Below are positions 56,590 through 63,608 of a stretch of DNA of 64,000 nt, in pieces. Position numbers and translations under genes: made by a program. This DNA comes from Helicobacter mustelae (GTDB taxonomy: Bacteria; Campylobacterota; Campylobacteria; Campylobacterales; Helicobacteraceae): contig NZ_LS483446.1 in NCBI RefSeq assembly GCF_900476215.1, positions 248,001-312,000 of the forward strand. The letters are read 5' to 3'. The number at the start of each line of letters is the position of its first letter. The stretch's first letter is position 1. The notes below the pieces were generated by a model. It was not told the DNA's origin and did not search any database. It saw nothing but the letters and a program-made list of their open reading frames with translations.

Positions 56590-57933
56590 ATGAATCTTAA
56601 AAGTATTAAATTTTTGTTATTGTCTTATTTTGGCATCGCATTAATTGGCTCATTCCTCCTCTCCCTGCCTTTTTCTCACAAGGGTCACATCAGCTTCATT
56701 GATGCATTTTTCACTGCCACAAGCGCGCTTACCTGCACAGGACTCATCATCAAAGACACAGCCCTAGATTTTACCTCCACAGGACATGTCATCATTTTGT
56801 TTTTGATTCAGCTTGGGGGATTTGGTTATATGACGATGCTAGGACTCATTTATCTGCTCTTTCGCAGACGCATGGGAAATGCTGAGAGAAACATCCTCAA
56901 AGAGGCGCTCAATCACGCAAATTACGACGATCTCACCGACTTCATCAAAAAGATTCTTATTTATGTATTTTTTGTAGAGCTCATTGGAGCCATTTTATTA
57001 AGCATTGATTTTAGCCTGCGCTTTGGTCTTGCTGATGGCATCTGGTATGGGGTTTTTCATGCCATCTCTGCTTTTAATAATGGTGGTTTTTCTGTCTTTC
57101 CCAATAGTCTGATTGATTTTCGTACCGATGTGTTGGTCAACACTGTGATTTGCGTGCTGATTTTTTTGGGTGGAATTGGCTATATTTGCCTAGTAGAGCT
57201 GCGTTTTTTTCTGCTTAACAGAGTCACAAAACAAAGAAAACATCGCTTCTCTTTGCATTTTAAAATTGTCTTTAGCGTGAGTATTTTGCTCATTGTGCTC
57301 TGTGCGATGATGTTGCTTGTTTTAGAATGGGATAATCCTGAGACCTTTGGGAGTTTTGGATTTTTTGAGAGGATTATTGCTGCGGTTTTTAGCTCTGTGA
57401 ATTATCGCACCGCTGGCTTTGTGTCCTATGATATGTCTGGCTTGAGGGATTCCTCGCTGTTTTTTTCCATCATTTTCATGCTCATTGGTGGCGCTCCTGG
57501 TGGGACTGCCACAGGCATCAAGGTCACTACCATTGCCGTGCTCTATGCTTTTGCTCGCAGTGTATTTACCCGCAGTGAAGTGAGGCTTTTTAATCGTGCA
57601 GTCAGTGAGGAGAGCATCCAGCGGGCATTGATGGTGTTTATCATTTCTGGTGTTTATTTTCTGGGGCTTTCTTTGCTATTGACGCTCATTGAGCCTAAGA
57701 CGAATTTTTTTGCCCTGGTGTATGAGGTCAATGCAGCTTTTTCCAATGTAGGGATCTCTACTGGCGATGGTGGAATCTTGTCTTTGAGTGCGAGCTTTCA
57801 TGATGCGGGAAAATCCTTGATTATTTTGTCCATGATCCTTGGCAAGGCTGGGGTGATGATCTTTACCTTGGCGTTGTTTGGGAGTGCTCAAGAAAGTCGT
57901 ATCAAATACCAAAAAGAAAAAATTATTTTATAA
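56590..57933 (+). CDS. trkH: Potassium uptake protein TrkH/KtrB
   Basis: A 447-residue K+ channel-like subunit with four M-P-M units. The selectivity-filter glycines are in TSALTCTGL, SAFNNGGFSVF, NYRTAGFVSYD and AFSNVGISTGD. It imports K+ under control of the cytoplasmic nucleotide-binding ring encoded 11 bp downstream. Confidence 0.94.
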   Translation: MNLKSIKFLLLSYFGIALIGSFLLSLPFSHKGHISFIDAFFTATSALTCTGLIIKDTALDFTSTGHVIILFLIQLGGFGYMTMLGLIYLLFRRRMGNAERNILKEALNHANYDDLTDFIKKILIYVFFVELIGAILLSIDFSLRFGLADGIWYGVFHAISAFNNGGFSVFPNSLIDFRTDVLVNTVICVLIFLGGIGYICLVELRFFLLNRVTKQRKHRFSLHFKIVFSVSILLIVLCAMMLLVLEWDNPETFGSFGFFERIIAAVFSSVNYRTAGFVSYDMSGLRDSSLFFSIIFMLIGGAPGGTATGIKVTTIAVLYAFARSVFTRSEVRLFNRAVSEESIQRALMVFIISGVYFLGLSLLLTLIEPKTNFFALVYEVNAAFSNVGISTGDGGILSLSASFHDAGKSLIILSMILGKAGVMIFTLALFGSAQESRIKYQKEKIIL

Positions 57934-57944
57934 AAGAGGATGGA

Positions 57945-58628
57945 ATGAAGAAAACCTATGCAGTGATTGGGCTTGGGAAATTTGGTGCTTATATCGCAAG
58001 AGGATTGGTGGAGCAGGGGGAGAGTTTGATTATTTGCGATAATTCTCAAGAAAATTTCAGGGATTTTCGCGAGGATGTGGAGGATTTGTATGTGCTGGAT
58101 TCTACAGATGCCAGCGCGCTCAAAGAAGCGGGCGTGAGTGAGCTTGACATCACCATCGTTTCCATCGGTGAGATTGAGGCCTCTATCCTCACGGTGATGG
58201 CGCTAAGGGAGCTTAGCAATCGCAAGATCATTGCCATGGCTACCAACAAAACCCATGGGCACATCCTAAGCAAAATTGGCGCAGATCAGGTCATTTATCC
58301 TGAGCGAGAATCTGCTAGCCGCCTGCTTACAGAATTGCTCACTTCAAAAGCGGATGTTTCGCTCATTAGCGGAAATTTCAAAATGTGCAAAGTCCTTGCA
58401 AGCGATATTTTTGGCAAAAGAAAAATCAAAGAGATTGAGGAATCTAGCATCAAAAAAGATGAGAGTGGCAAGGTAATCCAAGAAATCAAGATTATTGCCA
58501 TCAAGCGCAGGGATTATTGGGACATGCACCTCGATCCCAATTATGAAGTTTCTAATGAGGATTTTGTGGTATTTGTAGGAAATGATAGGGCTATTGATTT
58601 TTATGTCGCCAAATTTGAAAAATTATAA
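57945..58628 (+). CDS. trkA: TrkA/KtrA-type potassium channel regulatory subunit
   Basis: A 227-residue RCK protein: a Rossmann fold (YAVIGLGKFGAYIARGL) binding NAD(H) or ATP and ADP, followed by a short C-terminal RCK_C-like domain (DPNYEVSNEDFVVFVGND). One RCK unit, as in KtrA, not two as in E. coli TrkA. It gates the TrkH channel. Confidence 0.93.
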   Translation: MKKTYAVIGLGKFGAYIARGLVEQGESLIICDNSQENFRDFREDVEDLYVLDSTDASALKEAGVSELDITIVSIGEIEASILTVMALRELSNRKIIAMATNKTHGHILSKIGADQVIYPERESASRLLTELLTSKADVSLISGNFKMCKVLASDIFGKRKIKEIEESSIKKDESGKVIQEIKIIAIKRRDYWDMHLDPNYEVSNEDFVVFVGNDRAIDFYVAKFEKL

Positions 58629-58925: not shown

Positions 58926-59591
58926 ATGGGTAATTTGCTTCTTGTAGAAGATGATTTAGAAATTCAGAGGTTGATTGTCACTTATCTTAAGCAAGCCAAT
59001 TTTGAGGTCATTGCCACTGCTTCTTCCTCAGAGGCGTTGGAGATTTTGGAAAAGCAGAAAAACATTGATTTATTGATCTTGGATTTGACTCTGCCAGAGA
59101 TGAATGGCCTTGAGTTGTGTAAAAAAATACGAACTTTTTCTAGCATCCCCATCATCATTTCCAGTGCGCACGCAGATCTTTACAACAAAATCCAAGGATT
59201 TGAGAGGGGGGCAGATGATTATCTCTCCAAGCCCTATGAGCCTGCAGAGTTGATTGCTAGGATTCATGCGCTCTTGCGTCGTTTCAAGCCCAAGGAGTTA
59301 GAATTTGACAATCTTAGCATTAATATCCAAAAGCGCGAGGCTTTGCTTGATGGCAAGAGAGTTAATCTCACCAACATCGAGTTTGAAATTTTGATTCTTC
59401 TCATTGAAAATCGGCTCTATCCTGTCTCTAGAGAAGCCATCGTTAGTGCCATTAGTGCTATTCGTGAGGAAAGTTCTTTGCGCAGCATTGACACTCATGT
59501 GCGCAACCTTCGCACCAAGCTTGGCGATTCTGCCAAGGTGCCTAAATTCATCCAATCTGTATGGGCGATCGGATATAAGTTTTGTCTCTGA
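58926..59591 (+). CDS. OmpR/PhoB-family response regulator
   Basis: A 221-residue regulator with an N-terminal receiver (LLVEDDLE with acidic pocket, phospho-Asp in LLILDLTLPEMNG, Lys in YLSKPYEP) and a C-terminal winged helix (RSIDTHVRNLRTKLG and SVWAIGYKF). It resembles the ArsR (HP0166) and CprR types of Helicobacter and Campylobacter but I cannot assign an orthologue. It overlaps the kinase gene by 10 bp. Confidence 0.9.
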   Translation: MGNLLLVEDDLEIQRLIVTYLKQANFEVIATASSSEALEILEKQKNIDLLILDLTLPEMNGLELCKKIRTFSSIPIIISSAHADLYNKIQGFERGADDYLSKPYEPAELIARIHALLRRFKPKELEFDNLSINIQKREALLDGKRVNLTNIEFEILILLIENRLYPVSREAIVSAISAIREESSLRSIDTHVRNLRTKLGDSAKVPKFIQSVWAIGYKFCL

Positions 59592-60835
59592 GAAGCTTAC
59601 GCCTTAATTTTGTTTTTTTTTTTTTGGTGGCCTGCCTTTTTATCTTCATTCTCTGGTTTGAGATGGGGAAGTTTGTCGAGAATCATCAAAATGAACGACT
59701 AAAAAACGATACCTTTCTCTTCATCCATAGCATCACATTTCTCCATGGCAAAAGAGATTTCACAGGCATGGATGATGTGATTAGAGAGTTTGACTACAGG
59801 CTTATTTCAGAGGTCCCAGATGATGTCGCCACCCTTTTTTTCAACGAAAATGCAAATCCTAGGGTTACGATTTTTAAAAATGCTAGTTATGTAGGATTTT
59901 TGCTGGAGTATCCCAATAGGAATTTTGTAGCCATCAAACAAATCAATCGGATGTTTTGGGAGGAGTATTTCCTGCAGATATTGTTGCTTCCCATAGCACT
60001 TATACTCATCATCTTTCTTGTTATGTTTTATGCGACCCTAAATCCCATAGAGCGCTTGATTCAGGCGCTCAAGGCTTCTAGGGATGGAAATTTTAATTTT
60101 CCCATCTCCGCTAAACCAAAAGGTGAGATTGGTAATCTCATCCAGCTATTTTCAGAAGAGCAGCGCACAGTCTCTAGGATTCTCAAGACTCGAGAACTAA
60201 TGCTCTATGGCATCGGGCATGAATTGCGCACCCCCCTTGCAAAAATGAAGCTTTTACTTGGGATTAAGTCTCATTTGGATGGCAATGACAAAAAATTGCA
60301 AAAATACATCATGGATCTGCAAAAAATTTGTGACAATCTTTTGGAATTTGAAAGCATCCACAGCGGCAATCTCACGGTGAATAAAAAAGATTTTTGTTGC
60401 ACGGATTTGTTGCTAGAGGCGCTTAGTGGTTTTGAAGAGGAGGAGAGCAAAATCTCTGTGGATATAAAAGAGAGATTCCCTATAAGGAGTGATTTGCACC
60501 TACTTTCTATAGTGGTCAAAAATCTCGTTGAAAATGCGCTAAAATACTCCAGCGATGGGAAGATTGCCATTGGTGTGCAGGATTTCAAAATCCGTGTTAG
60601 CAACAAAGGCTCGCCCCTAGAGCATGAAATTGAATATTATCTCAAGCCCTTTTATCGCGATGTCAAATATGACCAAATCGATGGATATGGTTTAGGGCTT
60701 TCTATTGTTAGTGAAATTGTTGAGGTTTTGGGGATTGAATTTGAATATTTTTATGCTGATGGGATGCATCACTTTCAATTAAATTTTAATAAAAATATGG
60801 ATGGAGATAAGAAGAAGCTTAATGCGGGTATGTAA
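59582..60835 (+). CDS. Sensor histidine kinase with a poly-T tract near its start
   Basis: A 417-residue membrane kinase: transmembrane helix 1 (about 8-25, encoded across the T13 run at 59613-59625), periplasmic sensor (about 26-130), helix 2 (about 133-155), HAMP, DHp box with phospho-His in GHELRTPLAKM near 215, N box NLVENALKYS, and G2 box GYGLGLSIV. The usual G1 box D-x-G-x-G is not obvious (IRVSNKGSPLEHE in its place). Start is a TTG inside the regulator gene, without a clear Shine-Dalgarno. The reading frame is open with 13 Ts. It is presumably the partner of the adjacent regulator; the signal is unknown. Confidence 0.85.
   Translation: MSLRSLRLNFVFFFLVACLFIFILWFEMGKFVENHQNERLKNDTFLFIHSITFLHGKRDFTGMDDVIREFDYRLISEVPDDVATLFFNENANPRVTIFKNASYVGFLLEYPNRNFVAIKQINRMFWEEYFLQILLLPIALILIIFLVMFYATLNPIERLIQALKASRDGNFNFPISAKPKGEIGNLIQLFSEEQRTVSRILKTRELMLYGIGHELRTPLAKMKLLLGIKSHLDGNDKKLQKYIMDLQKICDNLLEFESIHSGNLTVNKKDFCCTDLLLEALSGFEEEESKISVDIKERFPIRSDLHLLSIVVKNLVENALKYSSDGKIAIGVQDFKIRVSNKGSPLEHEIEYYLKPFYRDVKYDQIDGYGLGLSIVSEIVEVLGIEFEYFYADGMHHFQLNFNKNMDGDKKKLNAGM
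59613..59625 (+). repeat. Poly-T tract (T13) inside the kinase gene
   Basis: Thirteen consecutive T (59613-59625) about 31 bp after the kinase start. Loss or gain of one T would shift the frame into a stop within roughly 40 codons, so this is a candidate phase switch. Confidence 0.7.
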
Positions 60836-63608
60836 TATTATTTTCAAAGATTTTGATCAATTGCGTAGAGAGTTGATTGCACATAATGTGCAGAAAGTTA
60901 GCAAGGAGCAGTTTTTTGTGCAGATTTTCATGGGGGTTGCAGACAAAAACATCGCTAAAGAACTCCTAGATTTTTTTGATACTGCGCTAGATTGTAGGGT
61001 TTTGCTCGTCCAGAGTGGGAGGGAAACCATCGTATCTGGTAATATTTTCTCATCACAAATCCTCATTAGCATCAGCTGCTTTTCGCATTCTACCTTGAAG
61101 CGGGCTTATTATCCCGCAGATAGGGATATTGATGAGATTGCTAGAGACATCCGAGAAAATCTTGCGAGTGAGAAAACAAAGCTTTTAGTGGTATTTATTG
61201 CCTGTGGGAGTTTTTATCATCAGGATTTGCTAGGGGCGATCAAAAAAGAACTCCCTAGTTTACTGCTTTGTGGAGGGAGATCCCACCCCTATGACATGGG
61301 CACTATGCAGGGTCTTATCGGGGATAATGATGGGATTTATGATCATGGCATGATTTGCCTTAGCATTGATTCTGAGATTCTTTCTGTGCAAAGTGATTTT
61401 GTTTTTGGCTGGGAAGACATCGGCCTTCCGCTAAAAATCACCAAAAGCCAGCACAACATCGTTTATGAAATCAATCACAAAAAAGCTATCGAGGTTTTTG
61501 AACATTATCTGGGCAAAACCGCATTGGAGAATCTGCATGCTACCACCTACATTTTTCCGCTCATTTATAGGGTCAATGGCGTTCCCATTGCGCGTGTAGC
61601 CATGAAAATTTGCCAGGATGGCTCTGTGGTATTTAATGACAATATCCCTGAAGGAACTGAGGTAAAATTTGGCTTTGGATTGATGGAGAATATCTCGCGC
61701 AATACCGAGCTTGCCTATGCCAAGATCCCCAAAAATGTCGAGGGCATTTATATGTATTCTTGCATTGGTCACTTGATGTTTTCTGGCAAGGAGGGTATGG
61801 AGAGTATTTTAAAAATCTTTCGTGACGAGCCCGCACTCTGTGGATTTTTTACATTTGGTGAGATTTATTCTTGCAGAGATCAAAATGTATTTTTGGGCTT
61901 GACTAACACCTTTTATTGTTTGTGTGAGGGGGATTTTGAAGAGAGTCAAAAGCCCTCTCTCCAAAAAGCTAGAGCAAATCTAGATAAGGGTACTCTTGTG
62001 ATGAGCACATTGGCCAATCTCATGCATAGGGTCAATCAGGAAGTGATGGAGGTGACGAAAAATTTTGAGACCTATTATGAATTTGTGGATGAATTGATGT
62101 TTCATATCATCGCAGATGCGGAATTAAACATCCTTTATAGCAACAAAAGGATTAGCCAGGTTTCCCTTTATGACTTCAGTCAGGTGCAGGGCAAAAACTG
62201 CCTGGAATTTGTCGATGCACAGACGCGTGAAGAAATCACTCATCGCATTCTTCCTATCTTGGCAGAGAAGGGGCAGTGGAGTGGGAAGATTTACCAATAT
62301 CGCAAAGACGGCACGCCCTATTATGTCAAAATGATCATCAAAGCCATCAAGGATAGAGAGGGAAATGTGATGCGCTACATCATCGGGCAGATGGATGACA
62401 CTGCTGATGAGCTCAAGCGCATGGCATTGGAGAGTGAATCGATATTTCTCAAGCGCAGTGATGAGGAGCGCCGATATTTGCTCGATCAATATCAAAGCAT
62501 TCTTGATAAAAATCAAAGCTTTTTTCGATTGGATCTCAATCGTAATTTTATTTATGGCAATGAGATTTTTTTAAAAATCACGGGATTGAAGTTAGAAGAG
62601 ATTTTGGGAAAGAATATTTATGATTTTATTCCCGTGAATGAGCAAAGGCAATTTGATAAAATCAGCAAAGATCTGGTAGAGAAGGGGTATTATGAAGGAG
62701 TGTTGGAGTATACACGTAAGGATGGTAAGAAAGTTTATATACAAAGCGCGGCTTATTTTATCAAGGACTTAAATGATATTCCCTTTGAGATTATCGCTGT
62801 AGGCGTGGAGATTACGCAAATTATTGAGGGTGTGAAGGAAATTGAATCCATCCAAAAAGATGTGATTTATTCGATGGGGGCAATTTGTGAGGGGAAAAGC
62901 CGCGAGACAGGAAATCACATTATCCGAGTAGCAGAGTATTCTGCCCTGCTAGCAGAGCTATGTGGCTGCTCTAAAGAAGATCAAGAACTCCTGCGCATTG
63001 CCTCTCCCATGCATGACATCGGAAAGGTGGGGATCTCTGATGCCATTCTCAATAAATCTGGGAAGCTCACCCCTGAGGAATTTGAGATTATGAAAACCCA
63101 TACTACAATTGGAGAGGAAATTTTCAAAAATTCCAATCGCCTGATCTTAAGGGCTGCAGGGGAGATTGCGGGAAGCCATCATGAATGGTGGAATGGGGAG
63201 GGGTATCCTAGAGGGATCCAAGGAGAGGAAATCCCATTATTTGGCCGCATCACTGCACTTGCTGATGTTTTTGATGCGCTAAGTAATGATCGCTGCTACA
63301 AAAAAGCCTGGCCGCTGCCAAAGGTGTTAGAGTATGTAAAATCCCTGCGGGGCAAGCAATTCCAGCCAGAACTCTTAGATTTGTTTTTGGAAAATCTTGA
63401 TCGTTTCTTAGAAATTGGCAAGAAATACCAGGACAAAAATTCATCCTCCCTTTTTGCTCAAAAAGAAGAGAGTTGCGGGGGGGGGGGCACTAAACACTCT
63501 AGTCGCTCTAACCACCGCCTCTCTAACTCTGCTATAAAAAATCAGCTACAACCCCTTTGTGGGATGGTTTCTATCAGTGATTGGCAGAGAATATCAGTGG
63601 AAGAATAG
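60801..63608 (+). CDS. FIST sensor - PAS - PAS - HD-GYP (predicted c-di-GMP phosphodiesterase)
   Basis: A 935-residue cytoplasmic protein. Domains: FIST_N (about 20-240, with LLLCGGRSHPYDMG), FIST_C (about 240-385, with IYMYSCIGHLMFSGKEG and CGFFTFGEIYS), a linker helix, PAS (about 430-545), PAS (about 565-680), and HD-GYP (about 690-880) with MHDIGKVGISDAILNKSGKLTPEE, HHEWWNGEGYPRGI and ALADVFDALSNDR. All HD and GYP signature residues are present, so it should hydrolyse c-di-GMP. FIST domains bind small ligands. The first ATG (60801) overlaps the kinase; ATG 60822 is an alternative. After the HD-GYP domain a G11 run precedes a non-conserved 43-residue tail. No GGDEF gene is in the window. 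Confidence 0.9.
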   Translation: MEIRRSLMRVCNIIFKDFDQLRRELIAHNVQKVSKEQFFVQIFMGVADKNIAKELLDFFDTALDCRVLLVQSGRETIVSGNIFSSQILISISCFSHSTLKRAYYPADRDIDEIARDIRENLASEKTKLLVVFIACGSFYHQDLLGAIKKELPSLLLCGGRSHPYDMGTMQGLIGDNDGIYDHGMICLSIDSEILSVQSDFVFGWEDIGLPLKITKSQHNIVYEINHKKAIEVFEHYLGKTALENLHATTYIFPLIYRVNGVPIARVAMKICQDGSVVFNDNIPEGTEVKFGFGLMENISRNTELAYAKIPKNVEGIYMYSCIGHLMFSGKEGMESILKIFRDEPALCGFFTFGEIYSCRDQNVFLGLTNTFYCLCEGDFEESQKPSLQKARANLDKGTLVMSTLANLMHRVNQEVMEVTKNFETYYEFVDELMFHIIADAELNILYSNKRISQVSLYDFSQVQGKNCLEFVDAQTREEITHRILPILAEKGQWSGKIYQYRKDGTPYYVKMIIKAIKDREGNVMRYIIGQMDDTADELKRMALESESIFLKRSDEERRYLLDQYQSILDKNQSFFRLDLNRNFIYGNEIFLKITGLKLEEILGKNIYDFIPVNEQRQFDKISKDLVEKGYYEGVLEYTRKDGKKVYIQSAAYFIKDLNDIPFEIIAVGVEITQIIEGVKEIESIQKDVIYSMGAICEGKSRETGNHIIRVAEYSALLAELCGCSKEDQELLRIASPMHDIGKVGISDAILNKSGKLTPEEFEIMKTHTTIGEEIFKNSNRLILRAAGEIAGSHHEWWNGEGYPRGIQGEEIPLFGRITALADVFDALSNDRCYKKAWPLPKVLEYVKSLRGKQFQPELLDLFLENLDRFLEIGKKYQDKNSSSLFAQKEESCGGGGTKHSSRSNHRLSNSAIKNQLQPLCGMVSISDWQRISVEE
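63477..63487 (+). repeat. Poly-G tract (G11) near the end of the HD-GYP gene
   Basis: Eleven G at codon 893-896. With 11 G the frame runs to 63608. With 12 G the frame stops two codons later (CAC TAA). With 10 G it gives a hydrophobic tail (ALNTLVALTTASLTLL) and stops. Poly-G of this length is a usual phase-variation element in Helicobacter and Campylobacter. Confidence 0.75.

Follow-up and report, generated by a model that had tools for sequence, protein, structure and literature searches.

A FIST-PAS-PAS-HD-GYP protein of Helicobacter mustelae and a putative minimal c-di-GMP circuit shared by three Helicobacter clades

Signaling by cyclic diguanosine monophosphate (c-di-GMP) is, to our knowledge, generally held to be absent from Helicobacter. 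HD-GYP proteins of the type considered here hydrolyze c-di-GMP to guanosine monophosphate (GMP), while proteins such as PelD and PopA are receptors that bind it at an inhibitory site (I-site). Here we describe a FIST-PAS-PAS-HD-GYP gene of Helicobacter mustelae (assembly GCF_900476215.1, contig NZ_LS483446.1), whose genome consists of one contig (1,576,607 bases). The gene lies in a stretch of 64,000 nt, hereafter the window, and feature coordinates are positions within it. Among proteins of solved structure, the closest to its catalytic part is PmGH, the GAF-HD-GYP protein of Persephonella marina, for which the roles of individual residues have been reported (PMC4159591). On the sensory side, NosP proteins rely on FIST for heme binding and the detection of nitric oxide (NO), and their operons also encode a kinase and a regulator whose output acts through c-di-GMP (PMC12570481). 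Finally, a survey of Campylobacterota signaling reported that c-di-GMP has been lost from Helicobacter, where an active cyclase is left in a single species, and that the I-sites of Campylobacter subgroup II are degenerate (PMC9239204). Set against these systems, the H. mustelae gene quite probably encodes an active c-di-GMP phosphodiesterase with FIST/PAS input, which would work in a make-break-read circuit together with a cyclase and a candidate receptor encoded between clpP and def.

The HD-GYP catalytic site

The open reading frame (ORF) at 60801-63608 on the plus strand is real, and the domain order assigned to it in the preliminary description stands: FIST_N, FIST_C, two PAS domains and HD_5/HD all score far above the curated Pfam cut-offs. 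The motifs read from it, HDIGK, HHE and GYP as well as GFFTFGEI in the C-terminal part of FIST, were all located (Table 1). The ATG at 60822 is more likely the start than position 60801, since the predicted N-termini of the orthologs begin at that ATG; with this start the gene overlaps the stop of the upstream kinase gene by 14 nt.

The HD-GYP domain aligns with PmGH (PDB 4mcw/4mdz/4me4) ungapped over 200 residues (E = 3e-59), a similarity well outside what chance would produce. The PmGH metal ligands E185, H189, H221, D222, H250, H276, H277, and D305 correspond to E695, H699, H731, D732, H760, H786, H787, and D815, respectively, and 12/12 orthologs retain 8/8 of them together with the equivalents of K225, D308, the GYP motif, R314, and K317. 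Hence the HD pair, the HHExxxGxGYP loop and the metal ligands, by which the family of HD-GYP c-di-GMP phosphodiesterases is recognized, are all present. Because of its E/D-T-G signature, which reads RETGNH in all Helicobacter orthologs and KETGLH in the ortholog of a genome from another family of the order (G051), the domain is predicted to belong to the tri-metal subgroup. Amongst the orthologs, the HD-GYP domain shows a mean column identity of 80% with 71 invariant columns, compared to 52–55% for the sensor domains (FIST, PAS), which points to strong constraint on HD-GYP. The family of the enzyme is already known; new are the receptor candidate and the operon described below, which, together with homopolymer tracts, go beyond the preliminary description.

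Cyclases, phyletic pattern and a candidate receptor

Two GGDEF proteins are encoded in the H. mustelae genome, one canonical cyclase and one that is catalytically dead. The canonical cyclase (L001, 129 bits), encoded between lptE and folC, carries the FFDID, GHSAGD and GGDEF motifs of a diguanylate cyclase and, five residues upstream of GGDEF, the inhibitory site RTSD (RxxD); the same locus holds a cyclase in 9/9 g1 and g2 genomes checked (g1 being the genus of H. mustelae, g2 another Helicobacter clade). Together with the intact predicted catalytic site, this cyclase supports the earlier claim of a complete c-di-GMP phosphodiesterase in a Helicobacter. A c-di-GMP role had been said to fall if, besides inactivity of the enzyme, the genome held no GGDEF or PilZ protein. 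No PilZ, EAL or MshEN domain scored above cut-off in this genome, but a canonical cyclase with RxxD exists and so the objection does not apply.

Our phyletic survey covered 121 Helicobacteraceae genomes. A strong HD-GYP match was found in 19 of them (g1 6/6, g2 7/7, g3 5/5, g8 1/1), and each of these genomes also has a gene for a canonical cyclase, frameshifted in one case (G138). Furthermore, three Helicobacter clades, with 18 genomes in all (g1 6, g2 7, g3 5), share the order of regulator, kinase and HD-GYP gene. In G051, a gap of 17 bp separates an intact REC-REC-GGEEF cyclase from a full-length ortholog that follows it, and the FIST-HD-GYP family is therefore tied to c-di-GMP by gene neighborhood as well. 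The suspicion that this strain has an unexpected system is supported as to the system, but not as to the strain: with the gene in all six genomes of the genus and in two further Helicobacter clades, and with a conserved operon, the species is no odd case. That H. pylori is not known to have such proteins agrees with genus g7, which has neither HD-GYP nor canonical cyclase and which we take to be the probable H. pylori-type genus. As judged from gene content, a minimal c-di-GMP circuit seems to exist in three Helicobacter clades and to have been lost in H. pylori.

In genus g4, otherwise devoid of HD-GYP, there is a lone weak partial HD_5 match in a 237-aa frame (L211, G118:C8:4000-7500). The genus also has a second GGDEF protein that lost both its active and its inhibitory site in the four copies read (L130, L159, L161, L187) and is possibly a cyclase relic.

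The dead GGDEF protein of H. mustelae (L002) adjoins clpP and def, as do its counterparts (66/66 loci examined). SNGIF replaces GGDEF, while RRSD is kept at the right spacing (RRSD-ILAYF-SNGIF), so that a dead active site and an intact RxxD occur together as in I-site receptors. An AlphaFold model places a GGDEF fold in the C-terminal half of the protein. If one non-orthologous row (L187) is left out, RxxD is kept in 24/24 clpP-def sequences from cyclase genomes and lost in 41/42 from genomes without a cyclase. Of 31 columns that the sequences from cyclase genomes conserve, those of the inhibitory-site block rank among the most frequently lost. According to a tree of ClpP and Def, cyclases were lost about four times independently, and loss of the site follows loss of the cyclase in 4/4 independent pairs under most pairings and in 3/4 under the rest. 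Because RxxD is kept with the cyclase and lost without it over these independent losses, the clpP-def protein is a strong candidate for a c-di-GMP receptor. Q71, considered as a further pocket residue, tracked the presence of cyclases in Helicobacteraceae, but varies elsewhere and was dropped.

Across the order, 142/150 genomes match the clpP-def family profile, although weak matches can be ordinary cyclases. The family is present in most Campylobacterales families sampled, and 25/25 orthologs read outside Helicobacteraceae have SRRSD but no GGDEF. The protein was not found in genera g5, g6, and g7.

The proposed circuit and its alternatives

In the circuit that we propose, the FIST and PAS domains would respond to a cue from the cytosol and accordingly tune HD-GYP, which, as a predicted tri-metal (E-T-G) type enzyme, would cut c-di-GMP to GMP; this activity and its direction we infer from PmGH. 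As the gene order suggests, the HD-GYP gene would be co-transcribed with the OmpR-type regulator and the ArsS-like kinase, which probably set its amount. The phosphodiesterase would oppose the single canonical cyclase encoded between lptE and folC, and the signal would probably be read by the clpP-def protein through its kept RxxD c-di-GMP pocket.

Several observations weigh against this circuit. D183 of PmGH, whose exchange for alanine abolished activity (PMC4159591), corresponds to Ser in 19/19 orthologs, and Ser likewise stands at the aligned position of the 3'3'-cyclic GMP-AMP (3'3'-cGAMP)-specific phosphodiesterase PDE 3 (5z7c); D183 is not listed among the family-defining features (PMC4159591). 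In G138, the cyclase (L203, G138:C5:64500-69500) is frameshifted just before GGDEF, while the HD-GYP gene and the receptor RxxD are intact; the cause may be a recent loss or a sequencing error. The pairing of HD-GYP and cyclase is not obligatory, since genus g9 has cyclases without HD-GYP; in the remaining Helicobacteraceae genomes no strong GGDEF match was found. On the receptor side, G101 has no cyclase and still has RSSD. Furthermore, the coupling rests on few events: four give a sign test p of 0.125 at best and cannot reach significance, and thus the coupling of RxxD and cyclase is a strong pattern, not proof.

Alternatives concern, first, the input. FIST_N and FIST_C score 59.6 and 75.9 bits (cut-offs 23.2 and 28.5), and an AlphaFold model of the FIST region reached a predicted template modeling score (pTM) of 0.87. 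While a FIST profile search against PDB sequences delivered nothing useful, Foldseek matched the model (region 60822-62015) to the human ubiquitin-ligase subunit FBXO22, so that profile and fold both identify FIST, and this solved protein may guide work on the FIST ligand. Alternatively, the protein might be a fused NosP/NosR unit, in which FIST binds heme, senses NO and directly switches c-di-GMP hydrolysis. Such a unit would be a special case of the proposed circuit for its input side. NosP operons hold the same modules, here in another order (PMC12570481), and the NosP equivalog model gives a weak match. However, this match has 25 bits, far from the curated cut-off of 450, the 19 orthologs have no conserved His in FIST, where Cys314 (18/19) is the best-kept candidate residue, and the response regulator is a DNA-binding one. 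Taken together, we regard a NosP/NosR-like switch as unlikely, yet as the most viable of the alternatives. A LOV photoreceptor in the first PAS domain, considered for the Cys in GKNC, was rejected, as this Cys is unconserved in the orthologs.

Second, the main substrate of the enzyme might be a different cyclic dinucleotide, for example 3'3'-cGAMP, a reading favored by PDE 3, which ranks second among the solved matches and likewise carries Ser in place of D183. In contrast, the E-T-G signature and the best match point to PmGH, which acts on c-di-GMP, the gene occurs together with cyclases and in G051 next to one, and the only intact synthase-like gene found is the canonical GGDEF with its motifs unchanged, although no search was aimed at cGAMP synthases; another main substrate is accordingly improbable. 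It is just as improbable that HD-GYP serves as a non-catalytic regulatory or c-di-GMP-binding module, for which the Ser in all orthologs and the reported degeneration of NosR, the HD-GYP protein of a NosP operon (PMC12570481), could be invoked, since degenerate domains normally lose ligands whereas the compared orthologs show no variation at the metal ligands or at the remaining essential residues.

Operon, homopolymer tracts and comparison with known systems

The genes for the OmpR-type regulator, the ArsS-like kinase and the HD-GYP protein follow each other in this order and overlap end to end (Table 1). The response regulator is 63–80% identical in other Helicobacter with matching gene order. 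We rejected the two-component pair as true ArsRS, because the kinase stays below the cut-off of the ArsS model while a far better ArsS (418 bits) is encoded elsewhere in the genome (G000:C1:1059228). The operon is preceded at 56590-58628 by genes for a TrkH-type potassium transporter (KtrB-like) and a TrkA-N protein (KtrA-like), an arrangement seen in 6/6 g1 and several g2 genomes.

Two homopolymers lie within the operon. One, a G11 run, falls in the part of the HD-GYP gene that encodes the C-terminal ~55 residues, a segment beginning near residue 873 for which relatives show no equivalent. The other, a T13 run early in the kinase gene, is missing from the kinase orthologs read. They are the window's only G/C run of at least 9 and its only A/T run of at least 10, with first-order expectations per window of 0.01 and 0.08. 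Over 18 Helicobacter loci, 6/12 G/C runs of at least 10 fall within 135 nt of an HD-GYP gene end, a zone that makes up 3.5% of the sequence (binomial p about 1e-6), in a post hoc test in which G002/G003 and two g2 cases may share ancestry. In two g2 genomes, C10/C11 runs stand directly upstream of the HD-GYP ribosome-binding site (L111 oriented 7476, L205 oriented 4811), a position that differs from the 3' runs in g1. Given these limits of the test, and since of the 12 H. mustelae genes with intragenic tracts in a published analysis few were seen varying (PMC2846917), we put forward phase variation of the operon through its tracts as a hypothesis. For a wider reading, in which the clpP-def protein is a general Campylobacterales receptor with RxxD tracking cyclases, and the one phosphodiesterase found to counter the cyclase in some Helicobacter belongs to a three-gene operon whose tracts suggest phase-variable control, we see about even chances.

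Table 1. Features of the operon and of the HD-GYP protein (window coordinates)
Feature	Position	Strand	Basis or remark
OmpR-family response regulator, first operon gene	58926..59591	+	PF00072, PF00486
ArsS-like sensor histidine kinase, paralog not true ArsS	59582..60835	+	NF038389 197 bits, cut-off 250
T13 homopolymer, near kinase 5' end	59613..59625	+	Frame open only at lengths 3n+1
FIST-PAS-PAS-HD-GYP protein, 928 aa (more likely start)	60822..63608	+	ORF, Pfam, ortholog N-termini
FIST_N + FIST_C sensor region	60915..61868	+	Pfam PF08495, PF10442; AlphaFold; Foldseek
GFFTFGEI	61842..61865	+	
PAS domain 1	62109..62396	+	PF13426
PAS domain 2	62550..62801	+	PF08447
HD-GYP catalytic domain with HDIGK, HHE, GYP, E-T-G signature	62892..63437	+	8/8 PmGH metal ligands
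HDIGK	63012..63026	+	
HHE	63177..63185	+	
GYP	63201..63209	+	
Species-specific C-terminal tail	63438..63605	+	Absent from orthologs
G11 homopolymer, HD-GYP 3' end	63477..63487	+	Tail predicted to end at 890, 905 or 928 aa depending on run length

With one cyclase, one phosphodiesterase and one receptor candidate, the genus-wide circuit would be small enough for single gene deletions, and this in relatives of H. pylori, while the clpP-def protein gains a testable function. If true, the repeated loss of the site coupled to that of the cyclase would be a clear example of the decay of a second-messenger system.

Compared to known systems, the catalytic domain resembles PmGH in its ungapped 200-residue match, its eight metal ligands and the equivalents of K225, R314, and K317; it differs in having Ser in place of D183 and FIST-PAS-PAS in place of the GAF sensor. 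With NosP-NosK-NosR it shares FIST, histidine kinase, response regulator and HD-GYP modules within one operon (PMC12570481), whereas here FIST and HD-GYP are fused, the regulator is of the OmpR type, a conserved His is lacking and the NosP cut-off is missed. The kinase resembles ArsRS/RacRS in that it matches the ArsS family model along its whole length, yet below cut-off and beside a separate true ArsS. Like I-site receptors of the PelD and PopA type and CbrR of C. jejuni (PMC8779298), the clpP-def protein combines a dead GGDEF motif with RxxD five residues upstream; unlike them, it is predicted from sequence and has another locus, an N-terminal helical region and a spread across the Campylobacterales. 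The main text of the earlier survey (PMC9239204) is without the FIST-HD-GYP operon, the other Helicobacter clades and the clpP-def family, and the present analysis extends that survey to whole clades, adds a phosphodiesterase operon and names a receptor candidate.

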